64,000 nt of DNA, from assembly GCA_025453975.1 (NCBI GenBank), contig JALOPI010000002.1:62001-126000 (forward strand), read 5' to 3'. The DNA comes from Syntrophobacteraceae bacterium (GTDB lineage Bacteria > Desulfobacterota > Syntrophobacteria > Syntrophobacterales > Syntrophobacteraceae). Each line of letters opens with the position of its first letter. Within the stretch, counting starts at the first letter, position 1. Of this stretch, positions 12,202-23,578 are shown piece after piece. The position numbers were made by a program, and so were the translations under genes. Under the pieces are notes generated by a model. It saw nothing but the letters and a program-made list of their open reading frames with translations, ran no database searches and was not told the origin of the DNA.

Positions 12202-12453
12202 TCTCCAAAAACTCAACCGGTGAGCCGCACCCACGCCGTGCCACGCACCTTCGCCATTGAAGGTCGACCTCCCACGCTGGGTAACATGCTGAGTCTGACC
12301 TGACCCCGTTCACTTTCCCCTTGCGCGCCCTCTGAGCCTCACTCCCGGATGCTGTCGAAATCCTGCCGCGCGTGCCGTGCACCGCGGGCGAAGAAGACGG
12401 CCTTGCCCTGCACCCTGTCCCCTGGGTCCCTCGGGGCGGAAGGGGAGAGATGC

Positions 12454-12724
12454 CATGAGCATGTATCTATACGATGATATGAAGGAAATGAAGGACTTCC
12501 TGGCCTACCGGGAGGAGGTGCGGCGACTGGAAGGCGAGTACCTGGAGATACGCCTTCTCCTCCGGGACGCCGAGGCGCAGCTCAGGGTGGACCCCGAAAG
12601 CGAGTATCTGGCGGCCAAGGTGATCTACCTGCGCAAGAGGCTCAAAGGGCTGGAGAGCCTGGCCCCTCGACTGGCGGCGGACCACCCCCTGGAAATCGCC
12701 CTCTGGGCGCCACCCCACGGCTGA
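12454..12724 (+). CDS. small helical/coiled-coil protein, first gene of the Ub-like cluster
   Basis: MSMYLYDDMKEMKDFLAYREEVRRLEGEYLEIRLLLRDAEAQLRVDPESEYLAAKVIYLRKRLKGLE...; GGGGAGAG RBS; short gap to E1-like gene. Confidence 0.65.
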
Positions 12725-12752: not shown

Positions 12753-14006
12753 ATGGCCGTGTCCCGTCTCGACCGACAGCTGCGCATCGAGGGCTGGGAT
12801 CAGTCTGCCCTGGACCGGTCCCGGATCGGGGTGGTGGGGGACGACGATCTGCTGGCTTCGCTCTTCGTGCTGTCGGCGGCGGCATTGGGGGTGAGCCGGC
12901 TCGTGGTGGTGGCACCTCTTCTGGATCGCCGGCTGGTGGACATGGCCCTTGGGCTGCACCCCCTTCTCGACCTGACGCACCTCCAGGGCTTCCACACCCA
13001 TCCGGCCATGGACGGGTGTTTCGGGCGGTGCGACCTCCTGGTGGATCTGAGCCACTACGGCCTGGCCAACAAGCTGCTCCTGGAGCGGGGCTTCCGTGAG
13101 GATCTCCCCGTGCTGAGGGGGTTTTGCCTCGAAACGGGTGACGTCCAGGGGCTTCGGGCCTTCAGCTATGTGAAGGGCCGTGAATGGCGGGAGATCGAGG
13201 GGATCATCAGTCCCATGAGCCTGCCAGGGAAGCACTTCGACGACGGGGCTCTCGACATCATCGTGGCGGGGATGGTCCTGGAGGAGGTCCGGAGCATCCT
13301 GATGCATCGGAGGGCTTATCCGGGCCTCGTGGAATATCGAAGGGGAAGGCTTCACGGCGGGGGGCGGCAGTCAGAGATCCTCGTGGTGGGAGCGGGAGCG
13401 CTGGGGAATTTCGTGGGACTGGGACTGGCGCTTTCGGGATTCTCCCGTTGTACCTTCATGGACCCCGACGTGGTGGAGCTGACGAACCTGAACCGTCAGG
13501 TTTTCTTTCACGACGCGGTGGGGCAAAGGAAATCGGAGGTCCTGTCAGGGCGGCTGAGCCGTCTCTTCGGCCTGGAGAGCCGGGCCGAGGTCGCCTACAT
13601 CCAGGACCACCCGGACCTGGGCGCTTATGATGTGGTGCTCGACTGCGTGGACAGCTTCGAGACCAGGATCTTCCTGAGCGAGCAGTGCCAAAGGCAGAAG
13701 AAAAGGCTCATCAGTGGCGGGACCAGCCCCAGCGCGGCCCAGGTGGTCGTGTACGATCCCGCCCGGGGGGGGCCTGCGCCCGCGGAGCTGCTGGGGCTTG
13801 CCGAGATCGTGCGCGCGCGGGGGGAGGCGTCGAGGCTCCGGGAGCGGGCATCCTGCACTTACCAGCCCGACCCGTCGGTGGTCATGACCAATCAGATCGC
13901 CGCCGGATTCATGGTGGAGAGGCTCCGGATGCTGCTGGACGGGCAGGAGCCCGGGAACGTGTTTTATGATTCCGCCAGCGATTTGAGAGTGGTGGCGGGA
14001 GATTGA
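12753..14006 (+). CDS. E1-like (ThiF/HesA/MoeB family) adenylating enzyme with two tandem ThiF-type domains, N-terminal one degenerate
   Basis: C-terminal half: ILVVGAGALGNFVGLGLALSGFSRCTFMDPDVVELTNLNRQVFF...DVVLDCVDSFETR...LISGGTSPSAAQVVVYDP...SCTYQPDPSVVMTNQIAAGFMVERL. N-terminal half: RLDRQLRIEGWDQSALDRSRIGVVGDDDLLASLFVLSAAALGVSRLVVVAP. Confidence 0.85.
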   Translation: MAVSRLDRQLRIEGWDQSALDRSRIGVVGDDDLLASLFVLSAAALGVSRLVVVAPLLDRRLVDMALGLHPLLDLTHLQGFHTHPAMDGCFGRCDLLVDLSHYGLANKLLLERGFREDLPVLRGFCLETGDVQGLRAFSYVKGREWREIEGIISPMSLPGKHFDDGALDIIVAGMVLEEVRSILMHRRAYPGLVEYRRGRLHGGGRQSEILVVGAGALGNFVGLGLALSGFSRCTFMDPDVVELTNLNRQVFFHDAVGQRKSEVLSGRLSRLFGLESRAEVAYIQDHPDLGAYDVVLDCVDSFETRIFLSEQCQRQKKRLISGGTSPSAAQVVVYDPARGGPAPAELLGLAEIVRARGEASRLRERASCTYQPDPSVVMTNQIAAGFMVERLRMLLDGQEPGNVFYDSASDLRVVAGD

Positions 14007-14097: not shown

Positions 14098-14487
14098 ATG
14101 TCGGAGGTCGAGCTGAAAGAAGCCGTGGGCGCCAGGGAAGCTCCCGAGGGGCTGCCTCTCGTGGTGGAGATCATTCCCGGGCAGGCCGCCGAGGGACTGA
14201 TCGATATCCACGAGGCGGGAAGCTACGAAGGGAAGACGCTGCGCAAGCTCTGCGACAAGATGCTGAGCCGAAAGGAATGGACTCTGGAGGAGCGACTGAT
14301 CATCGAGGACATCAACCGGCAGCTGCGCGGCGGGAAGATGTTGTGCCGGGGACAGGAGATCGAGGGTTATGCCCTGGATTATTCCGTTCCCGAGGAGACG
14401 GAGGCGGGAGAGCGTTATTTTTATGTGCCCGTTCGGGTCATCAAGCCCCAGGAGGGGGGATGCCGCCAGCGGTCTGAAGGAGACTGA
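14098..14487 (+). CDS. candidate ubiquitin-like modifier precursor (129 aa; GG followed by 8-residue tail)
   Basis: LPLVVEIIPGQAAEGLIDIHEAGSYEGKTLRKLCDKML...AGERYFYVPVRVIKPQEGG-CRQRSEGD; located between E1-like and E2-like genes. Confidence 0.5.
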   Translation: MSEVELKEAVGAREAPEGLPLVVEIIPGQAAEGLIDIHEAGSYEGKTLRKLCDKMLSRKEWTLEERLIIEDINRQLRGGKMLCRGQEIEGYALDYSVPEETEAGERYFYVPVRVIKPQEGGCRQRSEGD

Positions 14488-14490
14488 GCG

Positions 14491-15609
14491 GTGCTGCGCC
14501 TGTTCCATCCGGACATGAAGCTTGTCCTCGGGTCCGGCATGCTTTACGCGCCCCTTCCGCTGGATCCGGATATCGCCCTTGAGGCTCGAGAGCGGGTCGA
14601 GGCGTCGAGGGCGGGACCTGGAGACATGGAAAGTCAGCCTCCAGTCCTCGTGGAGCGTGACGGCAGGCCTTTCGTCCTCTCCCTGAGCCTGGAATCGCTC
14701 GTGGAGGGCTACGACCGGATCGACGGGGACGGCTATGAACGGCTCCGGCGGATCACCCTGGAGGGGCTCGAGGCTCCCCGGGACCTCCCGGCGGCCGTGT
14801 CACCCGATGGCAGGCTCGGGACCATCGTCTTCGGGATCATGCCCCATTTCGTCCGCAAGGGCGGGGGGCTGCGACGGGGACCGTTGACCGACGAGGCCTT
14901 CCTGGAATTCCTGTGGACCAGGCTGAATGTTCCCGGCGCTTGTCTGGAGGAGGCCGACAGGATTCTGGATGCGGCACCCGTGCGGGAGCGGCTGAAGGGT
15001 CTGAGCGGCCTGGAGCAGGAGGTCGAGGGGCTCGAGGACGGGCCCCTCGACGGAGAGGCTCTCAAGCGGTGGCTCCAGGGCGCTCTGCGGGGTCTCATCG
15101 TGAGGCGCGAGAGGGCTCGCCTGGAGGGAGAGCTGCGGGCCCGAGGGCAATGGGGTGAATCCAAGCGTAAGCACGTGGCCGTCATGCTTCACCTGGCCCA
15201 AGGGGGGGCGCTGGAGCTGGATGGCTTTGGCTTCACGAGGGTCGGGTCCCGGGAGGACTACGTCATCTACAAGCGGACGGGCGAGTTCATTCTCGAGGAT
15301 TACTACGGGCAGAAATACCGGTTCCCGGACTGCCGGGTGGCCGTGTCCACGGCCGGACCCTTGAGGCCGGTGGTGCTGGAGTCCTACAAGCATCCGTTTC
15401 TCCGCCATCACCTGCCCGGCCAGGAGATCTGTCTCGGCGGTTACCTCTGGCCAGGAGAGCCCACCGCGGAGAGTATCATCAGGCTCCTGGAAGATGGGAT
15501 CAACGCCCTGCTGCACGGCTATGATGCGCGGCGGCGCAACGGGTACCACAGCCTCGACAAAACGCTCTACTATGTCAAGAGCATCACATTCGAGGACTAT
15601 CGAGTCTGA
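14491..15609 (+). CDS. 372-aa protein with candidate E2 (UBC-fold)-like C-terminal domain
   Basis: C-terminus: FILEDYYGQKYRFPDCRVAVSTAGPLRPVVLESYKHPFLRHHLPGQEICLGGYLWPGEPTAESIIRLLEDGINALLHGYD; order of Y..P, HP and ICL motifs as in E2 enzymes. Starts 3 nt after the stop of the candidate modifier gene. Confidence 0.55.
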   Translation: MLRLFHPDMKLVLGSGMLYAPLPLDPDIALEARERVEASRAGPGDMESQPPVLVERDGRPFVLSLSLESLVEGYDRIDGDGYERLRRITLEGLEAPRDLPAAVSPDGRLGTIVFGIMPHFVRKGGGLRRGPLTDEAFLEFLWTRLNVPGACLEEADRILDAAPVRERLKGLSGLEQEVEGLEDGPLDGEALKRWLQGALRGLIVRRERARLEGELRARGQWGESKRKHVAVMLHLAQGGALELDGFGFTRVGSREDYVIYKRTGEFILEDYYGQKYRFPDCRVAVSTAGPLRPVVLESYKHPFLRHHLPGQEICLGGYLWPGEPTAESIIRLLEDGINALLHGYDARRRNGYHSLDKTLYYVKSITFEDYRV

Positions 15610-15625: not shown

Positions 15626-16111
15626 ATGAACCTGGCACGGGTCATACGAAGCGATCGAGCCCGCCAGAGGCATAGGCTGCCCCGGGAGCCCGGGATCTTT
15701 CAGGTTCTGGGCTGCATCGTCAAGGCCCACGGCCTGAAGCGGGACTTCCTGGAGCGGCTGAAGAGGGCCGTGGGGGATCGTCGAAGGAATGAGGGGCAAA
15801 GCCTGCGGGTCCGGGCCAAGAGCGCGCTGGAGGTCCCACCCTTCGTCCTGGTGTCCTGGGAGGAATACGGACTGGTGCGGGAAATCATGGCGACGGTGGA
15901 CAACCCCTACCTCGTCTTCGCTCGCTCGCCCGAAGAGATCCTCCTCTCCACACCCCTTCACGAGAAGGACCCTGCGTTGGAGCCCGGTGAGCTGCTGCAT
16001 CACGATTTCGAGACACTCCTCATGGCCGAGGAAGCTCGAGGGGAGATCCGGGATGGGGGGAGCGGCTCTCCCCGAAACCCTCCGGTGGGAGGGGAGCCGG
16101 AGATGACTTGA
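15626..16111 (+). CDS. hypothetical protein, 161 aa, Ub-like cluster
   Basis: MNLARVIRSDRARQRHRLPREPGIFQVLGCIVKAHGLKRDFLERLKRAVGDRR...; 16 nt after upstream stop. Confidence 0.6.
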   Translation: MNLARVIRSDRARQRHRLPREPGIFQVLGCIVKAHGLKRDFLERLKRAVGDRRRNEGQSLRVRAKSALEVPPFVLVSWEEYGLVREIMATVDNPYLVFARSPEEILLSTPLHEKDPALEPGELLHHDFETLLMAEEARGEIRDGGSGSPRNPPVGGEPEMT

Positions 16112-16214: not shown

Positions 16215-17327
16215 ATGATGGACGCTCATGACGGTTTGTCCGATCGCAGTCGGAAGCGCATCAAGGACAAAATCGAAGTGCTCAGGGAGGAGCAGACCAG
16301 CGATGCCGTGCGGGAGATCATGGAGTTCGACAAGACCCCCGCTCAGCTCAAGGCCGAGATGGACCGGTTCATCATCGGGCAGGAGAGGGGCAAGAAGATC
16401 ATCTCCACGGCCATCGCCTTTCACTACAAGCGTCTGGGAGCCGCCCTCCGCAAGGGCCTGGCGGAAAACGGCGGCGACGTCGACCAGGCCCTGCGCGGCG
16501 CACGGTCTCCCCGGGCCAACGTGCTGCTGATCGGCCCCAGCGGCTGCGGCAAGACGTACACCAGCGAGGTGACCTCCAGGCTTGCCGGAGTGGCCTTCGT
16601 TCACGAGGACATGACCCGCTTCAGCGAGGTGGGCTATGTCGGGCAGGACGCCGCCGACATCCTCGTCGACCTGCTCATGGCCGCCGGTGGGAACGCCAAG
16701 CTGGCCCAGATGGGGATCGTCTACCTGGACGAGATCGACAAGATCGCTTCGGAAATGATGGCCTTCAAGGACGTGTCGGGAAGGGGTGTCCAGAAAGGAT
16801 TGCTGCACCTGGTGGACGGCTCGGAGAGCACGGTCCAGGTCGGCAAGGAGAAGGTCACCCTCTCCACCCGGCACGTTTTCTTCATCGCCGGAGGTGCTTT
16901 CGAGAATCTCCGGGGCCTGGTGAGCCAGCGCATGGGTCGCCAGGGGGTCCAGGGAGACTGGAGGGACCACCTCCTGACCGATGACCTGGTGACGTTCGGC
17001 ATGGAGCGGCAGCTCATGGGGCGGTTTCCCGTCAAAGTCGTTTATGATCCGCTCACCACCCGGGACCTCAAGGACATCATGACCCGGAGCGCGGACAGCG
17101 TGCTTCTGGCCTACGTCAACGATCTCCAGGCGTGGTCCATCGACCTTCGGTTCACGGACGATGCCCTGACGGAGGTGGCCCGGCACGCCGAGCGAGAGGG
17201 GACGGGGGCGCGGGGGCTCATCAGCGTCATTCACCGGGTGCTCCTGGAGGACATGTACCGTCTGCCGGGCACTCACACGGGTCCTTTCGTGGTGGACGTC
17301 CAGGATGTGAAGGAGCGGCTGGGATGA
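16215..17327 (+). CDS. ClpX-like AAA+ ATPase lacking N-terminal zinc-binding domain
   Basis: FDKTPAQLKAEMDRFIIGQERGKKIISTAIAFHYKRL; Walker A GPSGCGKT; Walker B GIVYLDEIDKI; DVSGRGVQKGLLHLVDGSESTV; GMERQLMGRFPV; GTGARGLISVIHRVLLEDM. Confidence 0.85.
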   Translation: MMDAHDGLSDRSRKRIKDKIEVLREEQTSDAVREIMEFDKTPAQLKAEMDRFIIGQERGKKIISTAIAFHYKRLGAALRKGLAENGGDVDQALRGARSPRANVLLIGPSGCGKTYTSEVTSRLAGVAFVHEDMTRFSEVGYVGQDAADILVDLLMAAGGNAKLAQMGIVYLDEIDKIASEMMAFKDVSGRGVQKGLLHLVDGSESTVQVGKEKVTLSTRHVFFIAGGAFENLRGLVSQRMGRQGVQGDWRDHLLTDDLVTFGMERQLMGRFPVKVVYDPLTTRDLKDIMTRSADSVLLAYVNDLQAWSIDLRFTDDALTEVARHAEREGTGARGLISVIHRVLLEDMYRLPGTHTGPFVVDVQDVKERLG

Positions 17328-18124
17328 GACTCAGGAGCCTCTCGACCCTCAAGCGGCCCGAGCCCAGGGAAGTCCCCCTGGCTGCCCTGCCGCGAGCCAT
17401 CACCATGGCGGCCCAGGCCCTCGAGAAGGCCTTCAGGATCAACGAGATGGTCCTCGCCGTACACGGAGAGAGCCTGGAATGGTACGGCTTCACCCTGGGG
17501 CTCGTCGAGCAGCCCGACTTCGTCGCCGACATCGGTCTGCCGCAAAACGACCTGAATCTGACAGTCTATGCGGGGCTGAGCGCCGAGACGATCGCCCGGT
17601 TCCAGGAGTCGCTCCCGAAGGGAACGCTCATCAACGGCTGGATTCACTCCCACGGGGCCCTGACGGTCAAGGATTTCTCCCGGACCGACGCTCGGAACCA
17701 TGAGGTCGTGCTCGATTTCGTGGGTGCCAGCCTGAAGCGGCCCGTGGCCAAGCGTGAAGTGCCGGTGCGGGACCTGGCTCTCCTGGTCAGGGATCGTTAC
17801 GCCCCACAGGACCTGGCCAAGGGAACCGTGGCCATCATCACCGACGCTCCCATCACCGAAGCCGTGATCCTGGAAACCGTTTACGGGAGCTGGTGCTTCG
17901 CCGTCGTGGTGGGAGACGATGGCTGGCACCGGCAGGAGATCCATTACCGGGAATACGGAATCCTCTCGGGGCAGGCACGGGTGAGCCATGGGGATGCGGA
18001 GCTCGTGCTGGTGGGTGCAGGCGGCGAGTGGAGCCATTCGGACAGCCGGAGCCTGAGGGAGGAAGTGGAGCGGAAAGTCAGGCCCAACAAGAATCCACCC
18101 CTGGAGACCCTGGAGAGGATGTGA
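17324..18124 (+). CDS. JAB/JAMM (MPN)-type peptidase-like protein
   Basis: SLEWYGFTLGLV (candidate catalytic Glu) and WIHSHGALTVKDFSRTDARN (HxH..S..D); ATGA overlap with ClpX-like gene. Confidence 0.75.
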   Translation: MRLRSLSTLKRPEPREVPLAALPRAITMAAQALEKAFRINEMVLAVHGESLEWYGFTLGLVEQPDFVADIGLPQNDLNLTVYAGLSAETIARFQESLPKGTLINGWIHSHGALTVKDFSRTDARNHEVVLDFVGASLKRPVAKREVPVRDLALLVRDRYAPQDLAKGTVAIITDAPITEAVILETVYGSWCFAVVVGDDGWHRQEIHYREYGILSGQARVSHGDAELVLVGAGGEWSHSDSRSLREEVERKVRPNKNPPLETLERM

Positions 18125-18699: not shown

Positions 18700-19659
18700 A
18701 TGGAGGTGTCTCGTCAGCTGGCCGCAAGGCTCACGACCAAGTACCCCATGCTGCAGCATTTCACGGACCGGCCTTTCGGAATCGAGATCGAATTCTACGG
18801 CCTGAAGTACTATATGCTGCCGCCGGATAACGGCATCATCAAGCCTTACAACATCCATTCCCGGGCCCGGGACGGAAGGGATGTTCCTCAACTGCTGAGG
18901 GATCGCGGGCTCGAGCTGGGCGTTGACAGCGGCTCGTGGCATTTCGAGGAGGATACCTCCATCGTGCACCGGGGTGGAGTGGAGCTCGTCAGTCCCATTC
19001 TTCGGGGTTTCGATGGTCTGATTCAGGCCCACCGCTTCTTTGAGCTGCTGGGGGAGATCGAGGGCGTTGAAATCGATGCCTCCTGCGGCTTTCATGTCCA
19101 CCACGGGGTGGATGCCGGAACCTTCGGGTGCCCGGAGCTGAAGCAGCTGGTCAGGATCGTCTACGCCATCGAGGATTACGTATTCATGCTCATCGGGGGA
19201 GGCCGGGCCGCCAAGGACACGTGCCGCCCCATGGATTTGAATATCAAGGATCTTCTGGAGCTCAAGGACTGCGAATCCGAATGCGGGGCGGGGGGATGCA
19301 GGATCAAGCAGCTCTGGTACTCCCCCGACAACCGGTATGATCCGAGCCGCGGCAGACCCGATCGGTACGATATGACCCGTTATCACGGGCTCAATCTGCA
19401 CTCCTACTGGTATCGATCCACCATAGAATTCAGATATCACTGTGCCGTGCTGGATAAGATCGACGAAGCCATGCAATGGATCATCTTCACCCAGTTTCTC
19501 GTGAACCTGAGCGAGGGACGCGTGCCCATCATCGATTATCATTCCACCGGAAACAAATGGCTCAAAACGATTTACAGGGTTTATCTGGCTTTTGGACACA
19601 TGAAGCGCATCAGCGGTTGGAAAAAGGCCGAGCCTGGTGTATCGAGGGAAGTGGCTTAG
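18700..19659 (+). CDS. amidoligase-family (COOH-NH2 ligase, Amidoligase_2-like) protein
   Basis: RPFGIEIEFYG, GSWHFEEDTSI, VELVSPILRG, ASCGFHVHHGVD, STIEFRYHCAVLDKIDEAMQWIIFTQFLV. Confidence 0.75.
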   Translation: MEVSRQLAARLTTKYPMLQHFTDRPFGIEIEFYGLKYYMLPPDNGIIKPYNIHSRARDGRDVPQLLRDRGLELGVDSGSWHFEEDTSIVHRGGVELVSPILRGFDGLIQAHRFFELLGEIEGVEIDASCGFHVHHGVDAGTFGCPELKQLVRIVYAIEDYVFMLIGGGRAAKDTCRPMDLNIKDLLELKDCESECGAGGCRIKQLWYSPDNRYDPSRGRPDRYDMTRYHGLNLHSYWYRSTIEFRYHCAVLDKIDEAMQWIIFTQFLVNLSEGRVPIIDYHSTGNKWLKTIYRVYLAFGHMKRISGWKKAEPGVSREVA

Positions 19660-19716
19660 CCGCGGGAGGCGCGGCCGTCTGAGCTGGTGAACCACAGAGC
19701 GGGGGAATGGTCGAGG

Positions 19717-20475
19717 ATGTGCGACATATTCGCGCTGTCGGCTGGAGTCAATTACACGGCCCAGCAGTACCTGCCCATCTTTGCCGAGAAGGGCAAGCAG
19801 AACATGAGCGGCTGGGGAATCGGCTTCTTCCGGGATAAGCATGCCCTGGTGGAGCGGTCTTCGGAGAAGGTCTACGAGAGAGATCAGGTGCATGAGAGCT
19901 TCCAGCGGCTGGCGCGGGTGGTGGACAGCCGCATCATCGTGTCCCACATCAGCTGTCCCCTGAGCGGGGGGAGTCATGCACATCATAATCATCCGTTTTC
20001 TCTGCCTTTTCTGGATCACGAATGGCTCTTCGTGCATGTGGGCATTGTGAAAGGCATCGAGAGCTATGAAACCCGTAACGAGCCCCGGATCGAGGTCGAG
20101 GCTTATCCAGCCCGCATCTTCGAATACCTGAGGGATCAGCTCGTTTCGTACCTCCGCTACACGCCCTACGCGAGCCTCGGCCGATCGCTGGTCAAGGGGA
20201 TCAGAGCCATGCTGGGGGAATACCCGGGCCGGTACTCCTTTTTTCTCGCCAATGAATCCATGCTCTTCGGCTTCTCCAATTTCCGGCAGCTGATGCTCCT
20301 GCGGGAGCTGGAGAGCTTCGGAAACAGCCTGGTCCTCACATCGATCAAGGAGGGGCTGAGCGACAAGGAGTGGGCGGCCATCACACCGGACAAACATTCG
20401 CTGGGAAAGCTCATCGCGGTGGCGGGGCCGGATATACTCTATCTCGGAGACATACCGGAGACTTCCCTGATCTAA
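19717..20475 (+). CDS. class II glutamine amidotransferase (YafJ-like), paralog 1
   Basis: Cys2 N-terminal nucleophile MCDIFALSAG; MSGWGIGFF; SRIIVSHISCP; HHNHPFSLPFLDHEWLFVHVG. Confidence 0.82.
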   Translation: MCDIFALSAGVNYTAQQYLPIFAEKGKQNMSGWGIGFFRDKHALVERSSEKVYERDQVHESFQRLARVVDSRIIVSHISCPLSGGSHAHHNHPFSLPFLDHEWLFVHVGIVKGIESYETRNEPRIEVEAYPARIFEYLRDQLVSYLRYTPYASLGRSLVKGIRAMLGEYPGRYSFFLANESMLFGFSNFRQLMLLRELESFGNSLVLTSIKEGLSDKEWAAITPDKHSLGKLIAVAGPDILYLGDIPETSLI

Positions 20476-20516
20476 CGCGGCCTGATGGCATGCCACCCCT
20501 TTGAAGCCGGTCTCTC

Positions 20517-21263
20517 ATGTGCGACTTATTCGCTCTCTCCGCCTCGACTCATTACTCCGCCCCCAGGTCCCTTCCCATTTTCGCTCTCAAGGCAGGTCGA
20601 AACATGGATGGCTGGGGCATCGGCTATTTCAGGAAGGGCCAGGCCTATGTCGAGAAGTCGGCGGAGCGCGCATACCATGAGGGAAGATTTCACGATAGTT
20701 TTCAAAGACTGGCTCGAGTCATCACCAGTAAGTTCATCATCGCCCATGTCCGACTCCGAACCAGCGGTCCCATCGATGAATGCCATGCCCACCCGTTTGT
20801 CGCTCGAGTGAGGGGGCAGGACTGGATTTTTGCCCACAATGGCAAGGCCCCCGCCATCGAATCGTATCGGGGCCGAACCGTTCATCTGGATGAGGCTGTC
20901 AGTGATTCGGCTCGGGCCTTCGAGTATCTTCTGGACGGAATCTGGAGCCGCTATGAAGACCTGAGGGGAGTCCCGGGCCTGTTTTCGGCCGTGGCCGAGA
21001 CCTCGAGCCATCTGGTGCGCGATTACCCGGGGTCCTATAACTACTTTCTCACCAATGGATGGGTCCTTTTCGCCTTCAGCAACCATCGACAGTTCATGTT
21101 GCTGAAGGACAGCCGGAACCTGGAGGGGGGATTGCTGGTGACCACGGTGGAGCGGGGCCTGAGCGGGGAGAATTGGGAGAGGGTGGCCCGGCAGCCGCAA
21201 TCCAGGGGGATGCTCATGGCCATCGTGGGGAGCGACATCGTGATGAGGGAGGACGTCCCCTGA
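20517..21263 (+). CDS. class II glutamine amidotransferase (YafJ-like), paralog 2
   Basis: MCDLFALSAS; MDGWGIGYF; FIIAHVRLRTSG; CHAHPFVARVRGQDWIFAHNGK. Confidence 0.85.
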   Translation: MCDLFALSASTHYSAPRSLPIFALKAGRNMDGWGIGYFRKGQAYVEKSAERAYHEGRFHDSFQRLARVITSKFIIAHVRLRTSGPIDECHAHPFVARVRGQDWIFAHNGKAPAIESYRGRTVHLDEAVSDSARAFEYLLDGIWSRYEDLRGVPGLFSAVAETSSHLVRDYPGSYNYFLTNGWVLFAFSNHRQFMLLKDSRNLEGGLLVTTVERGLSGENWERVARQPQSRGMLMAIVGSDIVMREDVP

Positions 21264-22316: not shown

Positions 22317-23578
22317 GTCGTTTGGCCGGGGCCGCCCCCCTGGCGTTGGCGTGCCCCTTGATCCACCTCGGTCTTGAATCGAGCCAGAAACTCGGATTTG
22401 AATACGTCGATGGCCATGGCCTCGGCATGGCGACCCAGAAAGAAGAGCGCCATCCCCTTGAAAATGCGGGCTTCGGTCAGATCCGGGCTCAGGGCCAGGG
22501 CCTTGTCGAAGCAGGGAAGGCTGTCCTCGTGCCGGCCCATTCCCAGCAGGGCCTGCCCCCTGGCCGTCAGGACGTGGGCGTCGTCGGGCTGCCGGATGAG
22601 GATTCGGTCCAGGATGTCCATGGCCTCGGCGCACCGGCCCATGTCGTTGAGCGCCAGGGCTTTCAGCTGCAGCGCAGGGGGGTTTTCGGGCCTCAGGAGG
22701 AGCTCCTTGTCGCAGCAGTAGACCACCTCCTCCAGCAGCCCCCGCCCGGCCAGGAGCCTGGCCCCTTCCATCCAGGTCATCCGGCCGTCCTCGGGGACCT
22801 CGATGATCTTCATCATGACCCCTTCATAGGTTTCCTCCACGGCGCGCCGACCCGTCATCGCCACGGGCACGCCATGTCCCGGGAGGACGTGAGCGATGTC
22901 CCGCCTGAGGAGCTGTTTCAAGCCGTGGAGATAGTGGTCGAGCTGCCCACCGGCGGACTTGTCGGCGTCGCCGATGGCTTCGGCCAGGACGGTATCCCCG
23001 GTGATGACCGTTCGCGTCGGCTCGTGATACAGGCAGATCCCGTCGATGGTGTGGCCAGGGGTGTGGATCACTTCCCACGGGAAACCGCTCAGGTCGACGA
23101 CTTCTCCGCCCTTCAGCTCCGTGGGGGGGAACCCGACTTCCGTGACCATCTGCTTGAATTCCGCCGGCCCGCCAGCGTGCATGAGGATCTCGATCCCCTT
23201 TCCTTCCATGATGGGGGGATAGCGCAGAAGCTCGAAAACCCCCATGCAGTGATCGCGGTGGCCGTGGGTGAGCACGATCTTGCGGATGTCGAGGGGGCTG
23301 TAGCCCAGTTTTTCCAGCTCGGCGAAAATGGTGTAGTCGTTGCCGGGGTCCACGAGAGTCAGGTAGCTCCCCGCCAGGACATAGACATTGCTGGAATGAT
23401 GGTAGCCGATGAGAAACCTGCTGTTTTCGAATACCGGGTGCTCAACCTTCAATATGTGACCGATGGAGAGCCAGCCGGGGTGGTTGGGCTCTTCCTCGGG
23501 AAGCTCAGCGTTTTCAAAGAGACCGTGGAATCCGTGGGGGTTGTCCCGAGCGTCCTCGTCGTTCCGATGCTGTGTCAT
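22313..23578 (-). CDS. MBL-fold metallohydrolase fused to C-terminal TPR repeats
   Basis: KIVLTHGHRDHCMGVFE, VIHTPGHTIDGICLY, VLPGHG; then ALQLKALALNDMGRCAEAMDILDRILIRQPDDAHVLTARGQALLGMGRHEDSLPCFDKALALSPD. Confidence 0.85.
   Translation of the reverse strand: MTQHRNDEDARDNPHGFHGLFENAELPEEEPNHPGWLSIGHILKVEHPVFENSRFLIGYHHSSNVYVLAGSYLTLVDPGNDYTIFAELEKLGYSPLDIRKIVLTHGHRDHCMGVFELLRYPPIMEGKGIEILMHAGGPAEFKQMVTEVGFPPTELKGGEVVDLSGFPWEVIHTPGHTIDGICLYHEPTRTVITGDTVLAEAIGDADKSAGGQLDHYLHGLKQLLRRDIAHVLPGHGVPVAMTGRRAVEETYEGVMMKIIEVPEDGRMTWMEGARLLAGRGLLEEVVYCCDKELLLRPENPPALQLKALALNDMGRCAEAMDILDRILIRQPDDAHVLTARGQALLGMGRHEDSLPCFDKALALSPDLTEARIFKGMALFFLGRHAEAMAIDVFKSEFLARFKTEVDQGARQRQGGGPGQTT

Follow-up and report, generated by a model that had tools for sequence, protein, structure and literature searches.

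Introduction

Most bacterial ubiquitin-like systems studied to date function in defence or in sulfur chemistry. Pairing of a protein tag with a ring unfoldase is known in eukaryotes, archaea and, with an unrelated tag, in Pup. Several described systems come close to the locus analyzed here. In Bil (BilA, ubiquitin-like protein (UBL); BilB, E2; BilC, JAB; BilD, E1), the UBL is matured by the JAB peptidase (PMC11354881). Operon types 6a-6e of prokaryotic E1/E2/JAB/UBL genes carry the same enzymatic roles (Iyer et al. 2006, PMC1779556). In the Caldiarchaeum ubiquitin operon (CsUb, E1, E2, RING E3, CsRpn11), CsRpn11 cuts the CsUb precursor exactly after its diglycine (PMC6043591). Pup and UBact, with the PafA ligase and the Mpa ATPase, likewise combine a small tag and a ring ATPase.

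Here, we analyzed a stretch of 64,000 nucleotides (the window) from a Syntrophobacteraceae bacterium, in which a predicted UBL precursor gene lies in a same-strand cassette of E1, UBL, E2-like protein, X, ClpX-like AAA+ ATPase and JAMM peptidase. The features are as follows.

12377-12724, + strand: pre115, a small, probably helical accessory protein ending LEIALWAPPHG
12753-14006, + strand: E1-like activating enzyme, 417 aa (Pfam ThiF, 1.9e-29; matches E1, UBA, MoeB, ATG7 and Cap2 structures)
14098-14487, + strand: predicted precursor of a ubiquitin-like modifier (UBL), 129 aa, with a folded core spanning about residues 19-115
14455-14460, + strand: Gly120-Gly121 of PQEGG, predicted mature C-terminus from its conservation across UBL homologues
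14461-14484, + strand: tail CRQRSEGD, eight unconserved residues that the JAMM peptidase is predicted to cut off
14491-15609, + strand: E2-like protein, 372 aa, so labelled provisionally from its HP(301-302)...ICL(313-315) motif and predicted topology
15626-16111, + strand: X161 (X), a small basic protein present in nearly all cassette copies, with conserved NPYLxFAxSPEEILL and HFETLL motifs
16215-17327, + strand: ClpX/HslU-family AAA+ ATPase, 370 aa, with Walker A/B, GYVG pore-loop, arginine-finger and sensor-2 regions kept
17324-18124, + strand: JAB/JAMM metallopeptidase, 266 aa, whose start overlaps the ATPase stop; E52, H108xH110 and S119xxD122 conserved

Like Bil, the cassette has a separate UBL, JAB and two-Rossmann E1, and a separate protein labelled E2-like. 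However, BilA has two UBL domains and the cassette UBL one, the E2-like protein is extended by a large N-terminal part, and X and the ClpX-like ATPase are additions. Furthermore, the UBL, E2-like and X proteins had no usable match in Pfam, NCBIfam or PADLOC, and the locus did not qualify as Bil. Type 6d resembles the cassette in its small single UBL with a conserved C-terminal Gly, its separate E2-like protein and its JAB protein (PMC1779556); in contrast to the cassette, none of types 6a-6e was described with an AAA+ or ClpX gene, and neither word occurs in that paper. The Caldiarchaeum operon shares a UBL precursor with a tail beyond GG, a JAMM enzyme and, on the provisional E2 label, an E1-E2 cascade, but it is archaeal, has RING E3s (none were found in the cassette) and lists no unfoldase. 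An assignment to PRTRC (ThiF, Prok_Ub, E2-like, JAB) was not met either, as the E1 matched PRTRC_ThiF only weakly (49.4 bits against a cut-off of 144.75) and the UBL had no Prok_Ub match; nor was one to 6A-MBL, for which the E1 reached 48.3 bits against 320 for cap2_3. Unlike Pup and UBact, the cassette has a folded, GG-ended tag, an E1-like enzyme rather than a PafA-type ligase, and a ClpX-type ATPase. The open-access literature searched contained no account of a UBL cassette that includes a ClpX-like ATPase, although an earlier account elsewhere is not excluded. We regard the cassette as a variant of bacterial ubiquitin-like conjugation in which the ClpX-like unfoldase, left unstressed by an initial sequence-only reading, is the striking addition.

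Distribution and gene order of the cassette

About 50 genomes, almost all of them from Desulfobacterota, carried the six-gene cassette, within unrelated flanks. A whole-protein UBL search of 100 relatives gave 24 strong matches; an E2-based search across the phylum (248 genomes) yielded 12 strong E2 loci, with the UBL adjoining the E2 in all but one; and 52 loci came from scanning 85,488 species genomes. Across these 52 loci, the order on one strand was UBL, E2-like, X, AAA+ and JAMM, with the E1 placed either directly before the UBL, as in the window, or at the end. No other gene family was equally shared among the 52 loci, and no copy was found among 2.9 million viral contigs. The closest record with the same locus was a Syntrophobacteraceae metagenome-assembled genome (MAG), whose UBL was 80% identical.

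In two genomes, the cassette was split. In one (G047), UBL-AAA-JAMM lay at 2.12 Mb and, about 750 kb away, E2-X-E1 at 2.87 Mb; in the other (G218), UBL-X-AAA was on one contig and the E2 on another. The parts had thus moved and were not lost. The E2 without an adjoining UBL, an apparent counterexample, was that of G218 and was resolved in this way, since the UBL with its PQEGG was present on the other contig. On the bin617 chromosome (L041 9620-9990 and L102), the E1 beside the UBL was only a C-terminal remnant and an E2-X-E1 set lay elsewhere, so that the remnant is a relic of rearrangement. The most diverged copies (L087, L091) were on MAG contigs labelled Woesearchaeota and Nanoarchaeota, which may reflect either transfer or mis-binning.

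The diglycine and fold of the UBL

The sequence-only reading had noted, for a 129-aa candidate modifier, an end in GG plus eight residues, and this end held: the open reading frame 14098-14487 ends ...ERYFYVPVRVIKPQEGG-CRQRSEGD, with VIKPQEGG as the last residues before the tail. It starts at an ATG with GAGGAGG, a good Shine-Dalgarno sequence, just upstream, and stops at TGA. The Shine-Dalgarno sequence of the E2-like gene, GAAGGAG (14476-14482), overlaps the last tail codons, and its GTG start is at 14491; part of the tail DNA therefore has a second job in this genome.

Loss of the GG in homologues had been set beforehand as an outcome that would refute the proposal. As observed, PQEGG was kept in all 59 distinct UBL homologues, ruling out a chance GG. 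Among these 59, it was kept in 30 of the 30 UBLs recovered by whole-protein or E2-based searches, which did not require the motif. In contrast, the residues beyond it were unconserved, ranging in length from 0 to 151, with nearly any amino acid directly after GG. Six UBL genes stopped exactly at GG. Roughly one gene in ten thus already encodes the end and would not need maturation. In three others, all from Desulfobacca-type genomes (L065 and L066, 10364-10816 in both, and L028), a GNAT acetyltransferase followed in frame after GG. The domain of the L065 fusion matched Pfam at 2.4e-19, and no start codon was seen between GG and the GNAT domain there, indicating that it is made as a fusion protein. 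These arrangements recall the fusions of ubiquitin with ribosomal proteins. A fixed GG with a freely varying extension is also what genes for ubiquitin and its relatives, as precursors and fusions, look like. One genome had, in addition to a full cassette, another UBL gene standing alone, with 63% identity to that of the window (L057 and L062, same chromosome CP070843.1).

A non-beta-grasp fold had been the other refuting outcome named beforehand; a beta-grasp-like fold was instead supported by a confident AlphaFold2 model and by the nature of the top structural matches, with weak Foldseek E-values of 0.04 and up. The model, built from 53 sequences, had a mean pLDDT of 80.9, with block means of 90-93 over residues 21-110 and disordered termini that included the tail. 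The predicted order of elements was E21-27, E34-38, H48-56, H63-76, E80-83, H92-95, E97-100 and E106-115, followed by KPQEGG, an arrangement of strands and helices that suits a beta-grasp domain. In a Foldseek search of the PDB, ranks 1-8 were all ubiquitin-like: SUMO-3, Smt3, a USP7-UBL/ubiquitin complex, T. brucei SUMO, two other UBL domains, the TBK1 ULD and mouse 2900073H19RIK, which we take to be Urm1. The best match had an E-value of 0.04 and a probability of 0.84, and none reached 0.001 or below. Profile comparison detected no sequence similarity to ubiquitin, NEDD8 or SUMO, and the UBL, E2, JAB and X profiles gave only chance-level matches to PDB sequences. The UBL is thus likely a divergent beta-grasp domain as judged from the predicted model, while the Foldseek statistics alone are no proof.

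E1-like, E2-like, JAMM and X proteins

The UBL gene had been described as sandwiched between E1-like and E2-like genes. The E1 assignment held (ThiF, 1.9e-29), whereas the E2 label was supported only in part, by motif and topology. The N-terminal half of the E1 is a degenerate Rossmann half with a degenerate nucleotide loop, beginning with a RLDRQLRIEGW motif (RLDRQLRI of E1s), and the C-terminal half is the active adenylation half, with conserved GxGxxG, NLNRQ and DCVD motifs. Cys368, in the context C-x-x-x-P-x-P-[SA]-V-I-M-T-N, was invariant in 36 of 36 members and is the candidate catalytic cysteine; its thioester is inferred from sequence. No conserved CxxC zinc motif was present across the aligned members. 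With a ThiF-type adenylation domain, conserved catalytic motifs and a conserved Cys, the protein meets what is expected of an activating enzyme.

The E2-like protein begins with a part of about 220 residues of no recognised kind. Its C-terminal third is predicted to run helix, beta-meander, HP...ICL and helix, resembling a UBC domain. The motif reads YKHP-x11-ICL, in which H301 and C314 were invariant in 50 of 50 members; P302, Q311 and I313 were invariant too. None of 50 members matched a Pfam E2 family. Foldseek of the whole model returned no E2, a search that is uninformative for a multi-part model. Alignment of the profile to human E2s with HHalign paired the two cysteines, but equally high scores arose in 5 of 100 column shuffles. 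Prok-E2_A and Prok-E2_B, sought in the phylum as a bridge for profile comparison, gave one match and none, respectively. The E2 label is therefore provisional, resting on the invariant motif and predicted topology without significant support from Pfam, PDB, Foldseek or HHalign.

A JAB-type peptidase maturing the tail had been a further claim. The JAMM-like gene with a conserved active site held, and cleavage after GG remains inferred. E52, H108, H110, S119 and D122 were invariant in 27 aligned members, fulfilling the E...HxH...SxxD metal site, with an HxH-to-SxxD spacing one residue longer than in the usual motif. Prok-JAB was matched in 10 of the 27, at best at 1.7e-4 in a relative; the 0.019 of the window's copy was below the curated cut-off.

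X could be a ligase-like or an adaptor part, and its sequence gives no indication which. A PDB sequence search suggested ribosomal L20, with a score of 0.0025 along a basic helix; we do not believe this relationship.

A third ClpX/HslU-family ATPase

The AAA+ protein was the best conserved cassette member (54-88% identity), with intact ATPase motifs. It shares with ClpX and HslU the ATPase core, Walker motifs and GYVG pore loop, but lacks the zinc domain, the IGF loop and the HslU I-domain, and is a third paralogue. Against the NCBIfam ClpX model it scored 249 bits, under the cut-off of 359. The zinc domain and the ClpP-binding IGF loop were both absent, the IGF region being shortened or missing in the members examined, so that it did not qualify as ClpX. 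As the genome separately encodes HslVU and an ordinary ClpP-ClpX pair bearing a GFG-type loop, the cassette ATPase appears to be a third, dedicated machine. Lacking a ClpP-docking loop, it probably acts independently of ClpP, by unfolding or disassembling its targets, although another peptidase partner remains possible.

Proposed pathway and alternative explanations

The gene, the gene content, the linkage and the conservation of motifs and active sites are shown, and the fold is predicted. We consider it likely that the 129-aa protein gives rise to a ubiquitin-like modifier of proteins in an E1/E2-like/JAMM/AAA+ pathway; no biochemistry supports this as yet, and cleavage, thioesters, conjugation, targets and the order of steps are all inferred. 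In this proposal, whose steps up to transfer are modelled on known ubiquitin chemistry, the JAMM peptidase would cut the precursor after Gly121, freeing the GG end, for which CsRpn11 and CsUb provide an archaeal precedent. The E1-like enzyme would adenylate the terminal Gly and most likely hold the UBL as a thioester on Cys368, from which the E2-like protein would take it on Cys314 and pass it to an amine group, probably that of a protein lysine. The ClpX-like ATPase may then recognise the tagged protein and pull it through its GYVG-lined pore, and the JAMM enzyme may also remove the tag, in a division of labour like that of Rpn11 or Cdc48. Action of the ATPase on tagged proteins is guilt by association, inferred from linkage. 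The loss of ClpP contact, itself read from sequence, makes remodelling or extraction the likely outcome over ClpP-coupled degradation.

A bolder reading, toward which the evidence does not quite tip the balance, is a self-contained bacterial pathway in which a GG-ended modifier attached by E1 and E2 would target proteins to a ClpX-type unfoldase reserved for this task, while an Rpn11-like JAMM enzyme would both mature the tag and recycle it. This would be an analogue, mainly in Desulfobacterota, of the ubiquitin-Cdc48/proteasome logic. If what the sequences suggest is true, the cassette would be a bacterial counterpart of ubiquitin-directed protein unfolding. A tag and ring unfoldase joined by an E1 cascade in dozens of anaerobes, outside obvious defence islands, would offer a small, testable model for the origin of tag-directed unfolding, and the natural GNAT fusions are ready-made substrates for testing maturation.

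Among the alternatives, the UBL could be a sulfur carrier of the ThiS/MoaD/Urm1 kind, whose GG end would be adenylated and turned into a thiocarboxylate that gives sulfur to a metabolite or tRNA, with the JAMM enzyme merely maturing the precursor. MoeB and ThiF are among the nearest structures of the E1, some bacterial JAMM/E1/UBL sets are linked to sulfur (Iyer 2006, PMC1779556), and a Urm1 homologue appeared among the UBL Foldseek matches. However, the cassette has no rhodanese, sulfur-relay or cofactor gene; its E1 lacks the conserved CxxC, has two Rossmann halves like canonical E1s and did not qualify as part of a ThiS/MoaD pathway; and it occurs together with an unfoldase and an E2-like protein. 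We therefore hold this explanation to be unlikely. The idea that GG is a structural coincidence and that the UBL is an unconjugated small regulator or adaptor of the ATPase fares worse still. It can draw on the UBL staying in the ATPase-holding locus in both split genomes, but an invariant PQEGG abuts an unconserved tail and the UBL keeps the constant company of an E1 and a JAMM enzyme with intact active sites, which makes it very improbable.

Two other explanations differ in what conjugation is for, and both remain possible. In an anti-phage system like Bil, CBASS Cap2 or 6A-MBL, the tag would be put on phage structural proteins or on a defence effector. The best characterised bacterial E1/E2/JAB sets are indeed defence systems (PMC10097602, PMC11354881), and the E1 matched PADLOC E1-E2 models, though weakly, at up to 8.7e-17. 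Against this, the cassette has no effector or CD-NTase, with an AAA+ unfoldase in place of an effector, its flanking genes are mostly unrelated and ordinary, and it was absent from the viral contigs. Alternatively, the ClpX-like ATPase could partner HslV, or ClpP through a non-IGF contact, and the tag would direct degradation in a true bacterial ubiquitin-proteasome-like pathway. The ATPase is of the ClpX/HslU family with its pore loop, and both ClpP and HslV are encoded in the genome; nevertheless, the IGF loop is missing in the members examined, the cassette has no peptidase gene as a partner for the ATPase, and canonical ClpX and HslU exist separately. The preferred reading thus remains conjugation of the UBL to proteins that the ATPase would remodel or extract.

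Neighbouring genes

Amidoligase and glutamine amidotransferase genes were rejected as part of the cassette core, being near it in only three genomes. In the window, they occupy 18700-21263 (+), an Amidoligase_2 gene (9.4e-25) followed by two class-II glutamine amidotransferases; elsewhere, the trio adjoins the cassette only in L040 and, inverted, in L070. A protein combining an MBL fold with TPRs, at 22358-23488 (-) in the window, recurs at a distance of no more than 10 kb from the cassette in roughly a dozen genomes and may be accessory. Besides the window, the loci with this protein are L040, L041, L046, L047, L049, L050, L054, L064, L069, L070, L076, L090 and L027/L099. In L054 and L064 its gene lies directly upstream of the UBL, and in G218 it adjoins the E2 that has moved.

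A pre115-type gene adjoins the cassette in 14 of the 52 loci, mostly just upstream of the E1 and, in some genomes, between E2 and X or after E1. It was noted in the window and in L040-L043, L046, L048-L052, L054, L064, L070 and L075. The encoded proteins mostly end in a conserved ...L(W/F)(A/G)PPHG followed by the stop, and it is curious that another small protein with a Gly end lies next to a UBL system.
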